NCBI RefSeq assembly: GCF_963665995.1
Contig: NZ_OY762512.1
Span: 434,001 to 498,000, forward strand
DNA length: 64,000 bases
Source: Pleurocapsa sp. FMAR1
Lineage (GTDB): Bacteria; Cyanobacteriota; Cyanobacteriia; Cyanobacteriales; Xenococcaceae
Reading direction: 5' to 3'
The notes beneath the pieces are model-generated. The model had not been told where the DNA came from, searched no databases, and saw only the letters and a program-made list of their open reading frames with translations. Of this stretch, positions 4,501 to 44,350 are shown in pieces. How positions within the stretch are numbered: the stretch's first letter is position 1; each line of letters begins with the position of its first letter. Position numbers and translations under genes: made by a program.

Positions 4501-6184
4501 TTTAATGAGTGCCAAACAACTGGAAATAAAGCTAGCTCAGGGGGCAAAACCAGGAGAAGGAGGGCAGTTACCAGGTAAAAAAGTCAGCCCTTATATTGCT
4601 TCTCTGCGTCGTTCTAAACCTGGAGTAACTTTAATCTCTCCTCCACCGCACCATGATATTTACTCTATTGAGGATTTAGCGCAGCTAATTTTTGATCTGC
4701 ATCAAATAAACCCTAATGCTAAAGTTTCCGTCAAGTTAGTGGCAGAAATAGGCATAGGCACGATCGCCGCAGGGGTAGCTAAAGCTAATGCTGATGTGAT
4801 TCAAATTTCAGGACATGATGGAGGTACAGGGGCATCACCTCTTAGCTCGATTAAACACGCAGGAGTTTCTTGGGAATTAGGGCTAACAGAGGTACACCGA
4901 GTCTTGCTAGAAAATCAGTTGCGCGATCGCGTTTTATTAAGGGCTGATGGTGGCTTAAAAACTGGCTGGGACGTAATCATGGCTGCTCTGATGGGCGCAG
5001 AAGAATATGGCTTTGGCTCAATTGCGATGATTGCCGAAGGCTGTATCATGGCAAGAGTTTGTCACATGAACACCTGTCCTGTGGGCGTGGCAACACAGCA
5101 GCAGCATTTGCGCGATCGCTTTAAAGGTATACCCGAAAACGTGGTTAACTTCTTTTACTTTGTGGCAGAAGAAGTAAGACAGTTGTTAGCGAAATTAGGC
5201 TACCGCAATTTAGATGAAATTATTGGACGTACTGATTTACTGGTTCAAAATCCTGAAGTGGAGATCGCTAAAACCAACGGTTTAGATTTAAGCTGCCTAA
5301 TTAATTTGCCAAGTGTTAAAGAAGATCGCAGTTGGTTAAAGCACGTTGATGTTCATACCAATGGCAAAGTATTAGACGAGGAAATCTTAGCTGATGATCG
5401 AGTAGCTGAGGCGATCGCGTTTCAGGGTCAAGTCATCAAAGACGTAACTATCATCAACACCGATCGTAGTGTTGGAGGTAGGATAGCTGGTGAGATCGCT
5501 TCTAAATATGGCAACAGCGGTTTTGAAGGAGAGATTAACTTAATATTCCGAGGTTCTGCTGGTCAGAGCTTTGGAGCATTTAATTTACCTGGAATGAAGA
5601 TGATCCTCTCTGGTGAAGCGAATGACTATGTTGGCAAAGGAATGCACGGGGGCGAAATTATTATTGCTCCCCATACCAAATCTACTTACGATGCCGCTAC
5701 AAACGTAATTATAGGTAATACCTGTCTCTATGGGGCAACTGGTGGTGCGTTATATGCCAATGGTAGGGCTGGAGAAAGGTTTGCAGTGCGCAACTCCCTA
5801 GCTAAAGCGGTTATTGAAGGTGCGGGAGATCACTGTTGTGAATACATGACAGGCGGTTTAGTTGTGGTCTTAGGTGAAGTCGGGCGTAACGTTGGCGCAG
5901 GGATGACAGGTGGATTAGGTTATTTCTTGGATGAAAATAACCTCTTTCCTGATAAGGTTAATCCCGAAATTGTCAAAATTCAGAGAGTTAGTTCTCCCGC
6001 AGGAGAAAAACAACTAAAAGAAATGATTCAAAAGCACGTTGAGAAAACTGGCAGCCCTAAAGGAAAAACTATTCTAGCTGATTGGGACAATTATTTAGGT
6101 CAATTTTGGCAGGTAGTTCCTCCATCAGAAGTAGATAGTCTAGAAACAGGTGCAACAGAAACTAAGACTTTGACCTCTGTATAG
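1514..6184 (+). CDS. glsF: Ferredoxin-dependent glutamate synthase (GOGAT)
   Basis: Converts glutamine plus 2-oxoglutarate to two glutamates with electrons from reduced ferredoxin, the second half of the GS/GOGAT cycle. Length 1556 aa, as expected for the plant/cyanobacterial enzyme. The N-terminal Ntn amidotransferase nucleophile is Cys43 (DACGVGF); in the family the preceding propeptide is removed. A central domain follows, then the FMN-binding synthase barrel (about 830-1230) with three cysteines for the 3Fe-4S cluster at 1177, 1183 and 1188 ([13 protein letters not shown]), and the C-terminal GXGXG beta-helix (about 1290-1500). There is no separate small subunit nearby, supporting the ferredoxin rather than NADPH type. 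The first ATG lacks a good SD, so the exact start within the propeptide is not certain. It ends at a strong terminator. Confidence 0.96.
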
Positions 6185-6222
6185 TCTATATCGATCATTA
6201 GATACCTTAATCTTACATAGTT

Positions 6223-6259
6223 AAGGGCGATCGCAGTTTAACTGGCGATCGCCCTTTTT
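6223..6259 (+). terminator. Rho-independent terminator of glsF
   Basis: Perfect 12-bp stem (6223-6234 with 6245-6256, built around GCGATCGC), 10-nt loop, then TTTTT. It begins 39 nt after the glsF stop codon. The stem is made of two HIP1 octamers. Confidence 0.85.
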
Positions 6260-6436
6260 GATATTTTGCTCATACGCCGACTTTTGGTAAACAATTGTTT
6301 GATTTTAGCTTTAACCTTGAAAACTTTTAACAATCCTGCTACAAGTTAAAACATAAAACTTAAGCGTATTTTCAGGACAATATCTTCAGCGTAGTTTACT
6401 TTTTAAATATAATTGTTAAATTAGTAGTTTATTTTT

Positions 6437-7615
6437 ATGACAAATCCATCTCCTCAAGATCCGCAAAACCCGATTCCAGAACGCAGAAGGAGACCTGCCT
6501 CTGGTGTAACTTTTGATGAAATGATCGGCATAATTGTTGCCTTTACAACTATTGGGGCAATATTATTTTGGACGCTAGGCGGAAAAAAAAGCGGTCTTGC
6601 CAATTTTGGTGGTTTAGGCGGAGGCAATAGCTTACTTTCTGACTCTATTACTACCTCAACTGGTTTTGGTTTAAATAATGGAGTCATCGGTTCAAAATCC
6701 GATACTAACGCTAGCATGACAAAATCTGATGAGCGAGAAATACTTAATAAATTGAGTCAGTCAGAATCACCTGTTGCTTTTGTTCCTCCATCCCAAGAAC
6801 TTAATTTACCTGCTAAAGTCCAAAAGCAATCTTATCAGCTTGATTCTGGAGCCAAGCTAGTTCCTTTAGCTGGAATTGCTGCTCTTCCTGCCATTACAGC
6901 TAAACCCGAGCAAAATAAAAACAATATTACTACTCAAGCTCCCGCTAAGAAAAAGCCACAGCCACCTGCTTTCGTTGAAACTCCTGCCAAGAAAAAGCCA
7001 GCAATTGTTCCCATTGGAATGCCTAAAGATATTACTGATAAAGATTGGATTTATCCGTTTGTAAAGCAGATGAATGATAATGGGTTAGCAAGTGCCTTGA
7101 TAGGCGATAAAAAGTTTGAACCAAATAAGCTGATTACTAGAGCTAGTATGGCTACTTTAATTAGCCGAGCTTTTGATATGCAGCCTGAAACTCAAGGAAT
7201 TATAAAATTTAATGATGTAAGTAATGGAAATGAGATCGCCCAGGATGTGGATAAAGCAGTTCGCCTTGGCTTTATGAAAGGCTATTCTAAAAATACGTTT
7301 CGTCCTTTAGAAAACATCCCTCGCTATCAGGTACTAGTTGCTCTGGCGACTGGATTGGGTTTAAAACCATCTCAAAATGCCGACCAAGCTCTCCAAAAGC
7401 TCAAGGGTAGTGAAAACCTACCCGATTGGGCAAAAGAACAGGTAGCAGCTGCTTATGAAGCAAACTTAATTGTTAATCGTCCTGGTTTTGGTGAAGATTC
7501 TCTGATGCCCAATAAATCAGCAACTCGCGGTGAGGTTGCAGCTATGATTCACCAAGCTTTAGTCCAAAAAGGGAAACTCAAACCTTTGGAGTCTAAATAT
7601 ATTCTTAAACCGTAA
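6437..7615 (+). CDS. SLH-domain membrane-anchored protein
   Basis: 392 aa. A short basic, proline-rich N-terminus (ERRRRP) precedes one hydrophobic segment (about 30-47, IGIIVAFTTIGAILFWTL), then a low-complexity Gly/Ser linker and a Lys/Pro-rich region with the repeated phrase AKKKP. The C-terminal half (about 195-380) holds two to three S-layer homology repeats (DWIYPFVKQ...FEPNKLITRASMATLI, then a unit containing FRPLENIPRYQVL, then one ending TRGEVAAMI). SLH modules bind pyruvylated cell-wall polymers, so the protein probably bridges inner membrane and peptidoglycan or outer layer. No OprB porin barrel is present, unlike the SLH porin at 54439. A standalone gene with its own terminator. 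Confidence 0.75.
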   Translation: MTNPSPQDPQNPIPERRRRPASGVTFDEMIGIIVAFTTIGAILFWTLGGKKSGLANFGGLGGGNSLLSDSITTSTGFGLNNGVIGSKSDTNASMTKSDEREILNKLSQSESPVAFVPPSQELNLPAKVQKQSYQLDSGAKLVPLAGIAALPAITAKPEQNKNNITTQAPAKKKPQPPAFVETPAKKKPAIVPIGMPKDITDKDWIYPFVKQMNDNGLASALIGDKKFEPNKLITRASMATLISRAFDMQPETQGIIKFNDVSNGNEIAQDVDKAVRLGFMKGYSKNTFRPLENIPRYQVLVALATGLGLKPSQNADQALQKLKGSENLPDWAKEQVAAAYEANLIVNRPGFGEDSLMPNKSATRGEVAAMIHQALVQKGKLKPLESKYILKP

Positions 7616-22697: not shown

Positions 22698-23066
<369 letters not shown>

Positions 23067-23175
23067 TTATATAGAAACTCAGGAAAACGGCAGCACCGCG
23101 CATTATCGCGCTGATCTAGCCACCGCGTTGGTCGCTGGGCTAGGGTCGCACCGGCAAACCGCGACCCGTCTGGGA

Positions 23176-24294
23176 TTAGCCGCCCATCAGCGCCTGGGCA
23201 AGCCCGATGTAGAGCGGTATTCCCAAGGCGATCGCAACCGGCGTGCCGATGGCTGTGGACGAGCCTATGTAGGCGGAGGGATTAGCCGACGGGATACCGG
23301 CCCGTAAAGTAGGCGGCCCTGAGATGTCTGAACTGGAGGCGGCGATGACGGCAAGGAGCACAACTCCGCCAGGGCTGAATCCCGTGGTGTAGTGAGCAAT
23401 CATACCGAGACCGAAGGCGATGAACCCATGGAGCAGAGGTGCCACAAAGGCATATACGGCGAACCACTGGGCTACCTTGCGCAGCTCTTTAAGCCTTGCT
23501 GCGGCCTCCATGCCCATGATCAGCATTAGCACCGAAAGCAGGCCAGCGAAGAGGGGAGAGTAGAAGCTTTCATAGACAGTTTCTGGCTGGGTTATCAGAC
23601 CTAGCGCGAGGCCGAGTAGCAGTGCTGATAGGGCAGAACCCTGAAGGCTTTCCTGCACGATGGGCCATACCCTAACCCGCTTGCTTGCGGTACCGCGCCG
23701 CTTGCTGGGATACTCTCCTGCGGTACCGTGCGGCTCGCTGGGATACTCGCTTGCGTTACCGCCTACGGCAACGCGCTGCTTGCTGAGAGACTCGTTTGCA
23801 GTACCGCGCCGCTTGCTGGTATAAATGCTGGCTAAGACGATTGCAGTCACAAGCGCTGGGATGTCCATGAAGGGATAGAGTGCGGCGGCCCAGGGTTCGT
23901 ATGCCATGCCCTGCTGGTCCATTAGCTCCAAGGCTGCCGCGAGGGTAGAACCACTCACGGCACCGAATAAGCCTGCGGTCGCAATGCCATCCTCGGTTTT
24001 GACGTTCGGCAGCTTGCACAACGTGTAGCGTCCTATGAACACGATAAGAATCCCTATTACTACGGCGAACAGCGCAGGCAACAGTATCTCCGCCAGATTG
24101 GCGTCGCGGATTGCCTGTCCACCAGTTAAGCCAACTTTCATAAGCAGCATAAAGACGATGAACTTATAGACTGGATCTGGAATTGATAGTCGGCTACCGA
24201 CGGAGGCAATGACCATACCACCAATCAGAAAGCCGAGTGTTGGGGACTGTAACTGCGCCAGGAAGCGCGTCAAGAAATCGGACAAAAAATCCAT
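23176..24294 (-). CDS. sbtA: SbtA, sodium-dependent bicarbonate transporter
   Basis: 372 aa inner-membrane protein giving high-affinity HCO3- uptake for the carbon-concentrating mechanism. About ten spans in two inverted halves; signatures are TLGFLIGGMVIAS, KVGLTGG, FGAVSGSTLAAAL (110-122), then in the second half FSPGGVVLLAVIAASSSDISGPPTLRAGIP and SSTAIGTPVAIALGIPLY. Between the halves, residues 160-207 are an in-frame run of 11-residue units (see repeat), a region that in Synechocystis SbtA is the cytoplasmic loop near the SbtB contact. GC content and codon use differ from neighbours, and it lies between fragments of a decayed ABC importer, so it is probably acquired or transposed. Confidence 0.93.
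   Translation of the reverse strand: MDFLSDFLTRFLAQLQSPTLGFLIGGMVIASVGSRLSIPDPVYKFIVFMLLMKVGLTGGQAIRDANLAEILLPALFAVVIGILIVFIGRYTLCKLPNVKTEDGIATAGLFGAVSGSTLAAALELMDQQGMAYEPWAAALYPFMDIPALVTAIVLASIYTSKRRGTANESLSKQRVAVGGNASEYPSEPHGTAGEYPSKRRGTASKRVRVWPIVQESLQGSALSALLLGLALGLITQPETVYESFYSPLFAGLLSVLMLIMGMEAAARLKELRKVAQWFAVYAFVAPLLHGFIAFGLGMIAHYTTGFSPGGVVLLAVIAASSSDISGPPTLRAGIPSANPSAYIGSSTAIGTPVAIALGIPLYIGLAQALMGG
23674..23817. repeat. 33-bp-unit repeat read in frame inside sbtA
   Basis: Four imperfect units of about 33 bp with the core TACCGCGCCGCTTGCTGGGA. On the sbtA strand they read SKRRGTANESL, SKQRVAVGGNASEYP, SEPHGTAGEYP and SKRRGTASKRV (residues 160-207). The reading frame is kept throughout and the block ends where conserved SbtA sequence resumes (VWPIVQES). 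Confidence 0.85.
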
Positions 24295-24507: not shown

Positions 24508-24789
24508 CTATCCCCAAGGGGAATGAACTGGTAGGCTCAGTGCGGAAACCATCTCTAGAGATGGTTTCAGGGGTTGGTGAAAAGTTTGTTTAATGCTTGG
24601 TATTGCTTGAGAAGCTATGGGACGATAGAGCGCAGACCACACAATGGCTACTAGAAGACCCACCCCAATGCCCCAACTGAACGCCAAAATATGCGAAGGC
24701 TCTAGAGTAAACCGCAGGTGGCGATCGCTATCGTCAACATGGACAGCCCACCCTTAGCCTGTGGATGGTTTCGCCTTTGTCTTATTCAT
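24508..24789 (-). pseudogene. Small one-span membrane protein gene, frameshifted
   Basis: Starts with an excellent SD (GGAGGA, 24802-24797) and ATG at 24789: MNKTKAKPSTG then TAA. In the next frame the sequence continues immediately as GWAVHVDDSDRHLRFTLEPSHILAFSWGIGVGLLVAIVWSALYRPIAS to a stop at 24508. Restoring one base gives about 93 residues with one membrane span (roughly 43-60). It lies between the nrtA remnant and sbtA. Family not recognised. It contains a perfect 24-bp palindrome at 24545-24568. Either a pseudogene or a sequencing error. Confidence 0.5.
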
Positions 24790-24862: not shown

Positions 24863-25135
24863 CTACCGACTAAAAAGAGCACTCGTATCTTTGGCAAAAA
24901 ATCCTTTTTCCTTGGCAATGACTAAAGCCGCTGCTTCGACAATGGGGATATAACCTAAAACAGCTTGAGTAGTTTCAGGCATCATTTCAGGGCTAAGATC
25001 GACTGGTTTAGCTTGTTCTGTAGCCGTTTCACCTCCAGATTCGGGAGGATTGCCCAGACAAGCATTAAGCAATACCGCACTGGCAGCAGACACCCCAGCC
25101 GTATATAAAAATTTTCTTCTAGGAAACTGATTCAT
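24863..25135 (-). pseudogene. nrtA/cmpA N-terminal fragment
   Basis: MNQFPRRKFLYTAGVSAASAVLLNAC is a twin-arginine/lipoprotein signal as in NrtA and CmpA. A Ser/Thr/Pro linker follows, then LGYIPIVEAAALVIAKEKGFFAK, the beginning of the nitrate/bicarbonate-binding domain. Homology stops there and the frame ends after eight unrelated residues (DTSALFSR). About 90 of 450 residues remain. The break falls at the same EKGFF-AK-HGL point where the fragment at 22440 resumes, suggesting that the sbtAB segment or a recombination junction split this gene. Confidence 0.85.
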
Positions 25136-44265: not shown

Positions 44266-44350
44266 CTCGACACCCGACACCCCGACACCCGACACCCGAC
44301 ACCCCGACACCCCGACACCCCGACACCCCGACACCCCGTCACCCCGTCAC
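44266..44350. repeat. GACACCC(C) minisatellite
   Basis: About eleven head-to-tail units of 7 or 8 nt (CGACACC and CGACACCC) ending with two CGTCACCC variants. Pure C/A/G composition with strand asymmetry. No unique spacers, so not CRISPR. Lies 100 nt before glcD. Confidence 0.9.

Follow-up and report, generated by a model that had tools for sequence, protein, structure and literature searches.

The cytoplasmic loop between transmembrane segments 5 and 6 (TM5-TM6) of the sodium-dependent bicarbonate transporter SbtA of Pleurocapsa sp. FMAR1, encoded in the 64,000-nucleotide stretch of DNA analysed here (the window), contains a genuine in-frame repeat array whose tandem similarity goes beyond chance. 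Our results indicate, with good though not full confidence, that this loop is a disordered or flexible linker evolving by in-frame tandem gain and loss of a native 11-residue unit. According to this reading, the feature is the ordinary TM5-TM6 loop of SbtA, acting as a flexible linker, and the 11-residue (33-bp) unit belongs to it. Units would be gained probably through replication slippage or recombination between copies and lost through the same process acting between direct repeats, and changes that keep the frame would survive, given the need for an intact transporter. The FMAR1 gene has four units, and its nearest relatives, from Leptolyngbya, have a loop resembling the single unit that a collapse of 111 bp would leave.

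The product of this gene is predicted to be a member of the SbtA family on the basis of both the family profile and the ligand-binding residues. The Pfam profile PF05982 (Sbt_1) covers the whole protein (residues 18-367 on profile positions 1-308 of 308, E 3.2e-92), and phmmer aligns it end to end (1-371 on 1-373, E 5.8e-157) with Synechocystis SbtA (PDB ID: 7cye). The residues named as binding Na+ and bicarbonate (PMC8352866) are all kept (F110, G111, A112, S114, Y140, A318, S320, S322 and S325, in a numbering taken from the 7cye alignment and shifted by two in the C-terminal half), and these nine columns are invariant in both alignments that we built, of 14 and 39 rows. The sbtB gene lies downstream of sbtA (Table 1). 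A search of NCBIfam returned no family for SbtA, SbtB or a neighboring CmpA fragment, and between 22500 and 24900 no terminator-like sites were found and the number of promoter-like sites was near that expected by chance.

Table 1. Positions in the window of sbtA, sbtB and the units of the loop array.
Feature	Position	Strand	Evidence or comparison
sbtA, sodium-dependent bicarbonate transporter, 372 aa	23176..24294	-	Pfam PF05982 and phmmer
sbtB, PII-like partner of SbtA, 110 aa, C-terminal end CGPDGC	22698..23030	-	P-II PF00543, E 1.2e-13
Whole array, TM5-TM6 cytoplasmic loop, SbtA residues 160-207	23674..23817	-	four in-frame units fill it exactly
Unit 1, residues 160-170, SKRRGTANESL	23785..23817	-	25/33 bases identical to unit 4
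Unit 2, long form (45 bp, 15 residues), residues 171-185, SKQRVAVGGNASEYP	23740..23784	-	repeat search
Unit 3, residues 186-196, SEPHGTAGEYP	23707..23739	-	24/33 bases identical to unit 1, 21/33 to unit 4
Unit 4, residues 197-207, SKRRGTASKRV, continuing into TM6	23674..23706	-	repeat search

The self-match of the loop DNA peaks at a lag of 33 bp, with a score of 31, a value that none of 300 codon shuffles (mean 8.6) reached, and TRF reports a period of 33 with 2.3 copies (score 112) at 23686-23762. The repeat search recovered the four loop copies at 100, 82, 70 and 88% to the reference copy, with spacings of 33, 45 and 33 bp, as well as a fifth match (61%) outside the loop, at 23110, which looks like chance. 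These results bear out the location, reading frame and repeat nature of the array as described in an initial annotation made from the sequence alone. Its description of four copies of about 33 bp holds for the number of copies and for three of their lengths (11, 15, 11 and 11 residues along the array), unit 2 having 15 residues and hence one spacing being 45 bp. This longer unit aligns with the segment ES-SKQPVAAG...YP in the loops of relatives. The core SKRRGTA is present twice in the loop, and the starts of units 1 and 4 are separated by 37 codons (111 bp). The array was also said to add many Arg and Lys residues, and their content is indeed on the high side, but only moderately so: they make up 10 of its 48 residues (20.8%, against a median of 17.4%), a share equaled or exceeded in 26 of 132 loops, and its net charge of +6 is matched or exceeded in nine of the 132, FMAR1 being included in both counts.

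The initial annotation further considered that the repeat interrupts SbtA as an insertion, a reading that we reject. SbtA aligns over its full length with 7cye and with its relatives, showing no gain in length over the Synechocystis protein (372 versus 374 aa), and a TM5-TM6 loop, mostly of similar length, is present in the SbtA proteins that we examined. The region of residues 160-207 is not absent elsewhere, and orthologs from other genera present the motif S-x-Q-x-x-T-A-G-x-Y-P at that same place, a finding of the kind that the initial annotation had named as refuting an insertion. Coding palindromic repeats insert into genes in some genomes, and the double occurrence of the SKRRGTA core, together with the first impression of an insert, would suit a dispersed or mobile short repeat that had entered sbtA. 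This origin is nonetheless highly improbable. Searches of the FMAR1 genome by BLAST with the DNA, by pattern with the consensus (up to three mismatches) and by peptide with protein comparison placed the unit at sbtA only, the single place at E <= 0.001, with one further peptide match that falls short of significance (E 0.83, 36% identity). Across 80 genomes, FMAR1 included, a composite unit peptide matched 23 times (E <= 0.1), in 21 of the genomes, and all 23 matches fall in sbtA. A dispersed repeat is rejected on these searches and, at this sensitivity, the unit is native to sbtA. The suggestion that a repeat had colonized a tolerant site and evolves as coding DNA therefore comes close to our reading as regards coding evolution in a tolerant site; of its arrival from elsewhere there is no sign, the unit being found only in sbtA and the loop being no insertion.

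To place the array among other loops, we delimited the segment between DIPALV and WPI in 142 distinct SbtA proteins, a set to which a few genomes contribute two and from which one truncated row and one lacking the N terminus were left out. The loop spans 23 to 103 residues (60 in FMAR1; median of 62 in a 132-row set) and measures 36-103 residues in 133 of these proteins, the other nine being short. Among the 128 testable loops of the 132-row set (four short ones were not testable), 91 presented significant internal DNA repeats, compared to one of 256 length-matched control windows taken from the transmembrane halves of the same genes, in a codon-shuffle test (300 shuffles per loop, 100 per control) that ignores the relatedness of the sequences; the remaining 37 loops showed no significant repeat. 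The most common lags are 33 bp (27 loops) and 18 bp (22 loops), corresponding to 11 and 6 residues, followed by 51 bp (10) and 72 bp (9). The lag is in frame in all 91 significant loops, yet the same is true of 30 of the 37 non-significant ones, and we dropped this observation as proof of selection on the frame. A strict 11-residue unit occurs 61 times, in 46 of the 142 loops, its commonest letters being S-[KE]-Q-[RG]-[IV]-T-A-[GS]-G-Y-P, with part of these positions fixed by the search pattern. About six copies are found in the loop of Calothrix MO_192.B10 (L071), and the loops of Chlorogloeopsis (L107) and Baaleninema (L086) are built of 7- and 6-residue units, respectively.

Copy number differs among close relatives, both between FMAR1 and two Leptolyngbya genes and in other close pairs; the comparison comprises one genome per species, and changes in copy number are read between species. 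Proteins L108 and L025, for instance, are 97.8% identical outside the loop and differ by 6 aa in loop length, and L049 and L071, at 96.3% identity, differ by 31 aa. The difference in some close pairs amounts to roughly whole units, although steps of one to three residues are more common. In 326 overlapping pairs with at least 90% identity, length differences of 0, 1, 2 and 3 residues predominate (37, 26, 25 and 22 pairs), with a modest bump at 11 residues (18 pairs, versus 14 at 10 and 11 at 12). In one relative of the same genus, a single contig carries two sbtA genes separated by about 4 kb (G004:C100:1922-3061 and 6010-7149), with units in both loops.

The closest relatives of the FMAR1 protein outside the loop are the SbtAs of Leptolyngbya foveolarum and Leptolyngbya sp. 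BC1307 (93.2 and 93.8% identity over 324 positions), all other rows being at most 88.9% identical. Both of these proteins (L035 and L036) have a 23-residue loop and 335 aa, 37 fewer than in FMAR1. A crossover between units 1 and 4, given the 111 bp between their starts, yields exactly this short length, and a collapse between direct repeats is the best explanation for the Leptolyngbya loop. The loop DNA of L035 matches the predicted join of units 1 and 4 at 37 of 42 bases, compared to 34 for the end of unit 4 alone and 27 for the end of unit 1 alone, a signal that rests on three bases; in L036 and L156 the best join exceeds the match of the unit 4 side alone by one base, and in L123 and L124 by none.

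The same 23-residue length recurs elsewhere, in the beta-type proteins L123 (Pseudanabaena PCC 7367), L124 and L156, and in four loci of family f34 (L157-L160) that are taken, from their identity and place in the tree, to be alpha-cyanobacterial and Cyanobium-type. L123 is taken as plasmid-borne. To elucidate the history of these short forms we inferred trees of SbtA without the loop (protein, LG+G4), in which the FMAR1 gene is sister to the Leptolyngbya pair (bootstrap 100, SH-aLRT 97) and the trio lies inside the long-loop genes. The AU test rejects grouping the five beta-type short forms in one clade (p-AU 0.002), and the best trees show four beta-type lineages with exactly 23 residues, L123 falling among weakly supported branches. 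The nine short forms take five changes on the 142-row tree, of which supported branches force four with the f34 group counted in, and four are again forced on a 62-row tree rooted on three distant paralogs. Short forms have thus arisen separately several times on these trees. Five of seven hand-picked distant paralogs have short loops as well, suggesting that the family probably started from a short loop, which would have been expanded in the beta group, the expansion being several times lost again.

This probable older state also lends some credit to the opposite direction of change, in which the 111 bp were gained in FMAR1 and the Leptolyngbya pair kept a short loop like that of the paralogs and the f34 loci. 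We consider such a gain unlikely, since the trio nests in long-loop genes and since L006, from the pair sister to the trio, has the core (SKQRGTA) at both loop ends, as FMAR1 does, although L034 of that pair does not. A collapse in Leptolyngbya is the direction that we favor. Relatives from the same genus (G002, G003, G006 and G008) encode a different type of SbtA, 66-68% identical to that of FMAR1, and the nearest SbtAs found are those of Leptolyngbya, so sbtA has probably moved between cyanobacterial lineages.

Divergence among units was then compared with that of the rest of the gene. Pairs of units within a loop have a pN/pS of 0.98 (22 pairs) and units of different loci one of 0.57 (1500 random pairs, with pN lowered by the pattern through which units were selected). 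The remainder of sbtA yields 0.125, 0.127, 0.20 and 0.25 for FMAR1 against L035, L036, L034 and L006, respectively. These values fit a tolerant linker inside a constrained protein. Codons are shared at identical residues slightly more often in units (0.774) than in the rest of the gene (0.719; 400 sampled pairs), as would also be expected from selection on codons or DNA, and conservation of the unit at the DNA level is rejected given the small size of this excess.

It had also been proposed that the array alters the binding of SbtB, and neither structural nor functional data support this view. Cryo-EM structures of the same transporter from Synechocystis, alone and with SbtB (7CYE and 7CYF; PMC8352866), lack residues Ser166-Trp212, consistent with a flexible loop, and place the T-loop of SbtB in a cleft of TM2, TM7, TM9 and TM10, between the gate and core domains. 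In the available part of the report by Du et al. 2014 (PMC4275256), six SbtAs were active in Escherichia coli, including three short-loop proteins of transitional strains, and their kinetics did not follow loop size. With SbtB co-expressed, uptake was abolished in the 7942, 6803, 7001 and 5701 pairs, with 6307 unaffected, and two of the three pairs from transitional strains were inhibited; furthermore, SbtA7942 bearing a c-Myc tag in the loop still copurified with SbtB. Docking of SbtB through the loop is thus not supported by either the published complex or the short-loop pairs, and the two closest relatives of the FMAR1 gene, which have no array, keep an adjoining sbtB. Transport of bicarbonate by short-loop SbtA, together with inhibition by SbtB in two of the three short-loop pairs, makes it probable that neither activity depends on the extra units: by analogy with these published assays on other SbtAs, the array is unlikely to be required for transport, for which it would be dispensable, and is probably dispensable for inhibition by SbtB too.

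Downstream sbtB genes were identified at 69 of 97 loci with at least 600 bases of downstream sequence, L035 and L036 included, and they also follow the short-loop genes L156, L157, L158 and L159. A motif scan found no sbtB in about 1.35 kb downstream of L123 and L124 (L163 and L162) or in about 0.5 kb downstream of L160. A joint loss of sbtB and the array was considered, and no clear link emerged, as a downstream sbtB is likewise missing from 28 of the 95 long-loop loci that have 600 or more bases of downstream sequence.

By analogy with Synechocystis, a regulatory role of the loop is possible, and it is kept open by the phosphorylation of Thr189 within the Synechocystis loop (QPVAAGDYGDQpT189DYPR), which was lowered on nitrogen starvation in experiment 1 of the phosphoproteomic source, as given in its available part (PMC4379935). 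In its strongest form, such a role would make the array a tunable tether whose Ser/Thr and basic residues in each unit are read by kinases, the membrane surface or SbtB/SbtC, with copy number setting the response. Beyond the phosphosite, the retention of a long loop in 133 of 142 proteins and the presence of Thr as the sixth residue of 48 of the 61 strict units (a position where the pattern allowed only T, I, V, N and S) agree with this possibility. However, Thr189 lies in T-D-Y-P and does not correspond to unit position 6, just 36 of the 142 loops contain [ST]xYP, units within one loop diverge freely (the pN/pS of 0.98 above) and the array has been lost in several lineages, all of which leaves a tunable tether quite unlikely. 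Amplification of a phosphosite, Thr189 having no fixed position in the unit, was likewise set aside as the main reading and kept as a rival. Very unlikely, too, is a broader scenario of the loop as an evolutionary dial, in which units of 11 and 6 residues enlarged an ancestral 23-residue linker, in the beta group, into a tether open to phosphorylation, with copy number adjusting the post-translational control of bicarbonate uptake, and in which a single recombination between end repeats lets a lineage turn the tether off and return to the ancestral length.

The loop examined here is the helix 5/6 loop of Du et al. 2014 (PMC4275256), already known to be variable and to be 35-40 aa shorter in transitional (Cyanobium-type) strains. 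In the portion of that report available to us, a partial deletion is mentioned as an earlier suggestion for the short loop and the role of the loop is called undetermined in a comparison of short and long forms; loop variation is not ascribed there to a repeat array, whereas here it would trace to gain and loss of units, and the recurring 23-residue short form is a feature of the present analysis. In the open-access literature, mostly surveyed at a level short of full text, we found no description of this loop as an array of repeats. By eye, the Synechocystis loop (ESFSKQPVAAGDYGDQTDYPRTRQEY) presents no clear tandem 11-residue units. The array resembles the in-frame repeats of Borgs, which, in the available part of their description (PMC9879509), are coding tandem units divisible by three, often disordered, fast-evolving and similar in homologous proteins. 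Borg repeats are mostly perfect and extend across extrachromosomal genomes, in contrast with the imperfect array of SbtA, which is confined to one transporter gene in many cyanobacteria.

Repeat history is therefore put forward as an explanation for the variation in loop length, short forms included, and the FMAR1 gene and the two Leptolyngbya genes, at 93-94% identity outside the loop, provide a natural comparison that isolates the loop. The use of SbtA to engineer carbon concentration in the chloroplasts of crops is under consideration (PMC4275256, available part), and for this it would be useful to know a part of the protein that evolution discards freely.

Upstream of sbtA, a 90-aa open reading frame (24863-25135, minus strand) matches the N-terminal part of a bicarbonate-binding protein (PDB ID: 2i48) over residues 27-82 (E 9.1e-14) and the Pfam family NMT1_2 (E 7.1e-6), and then stops; it is apparently a cmpA-like remnant adjoining sbtAB. 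Between this remnant and sbtA lies a perfect 24-bp palindrome, GAAACCATCTCTAGAGATGGTTTC (24545-24568), of which the genome holds one further near copy with two mismatches. Elsewhere in the window, the 8-bp unit CGACACCC is repeated in tandem, with 10.8 copies, at 44268-44350.
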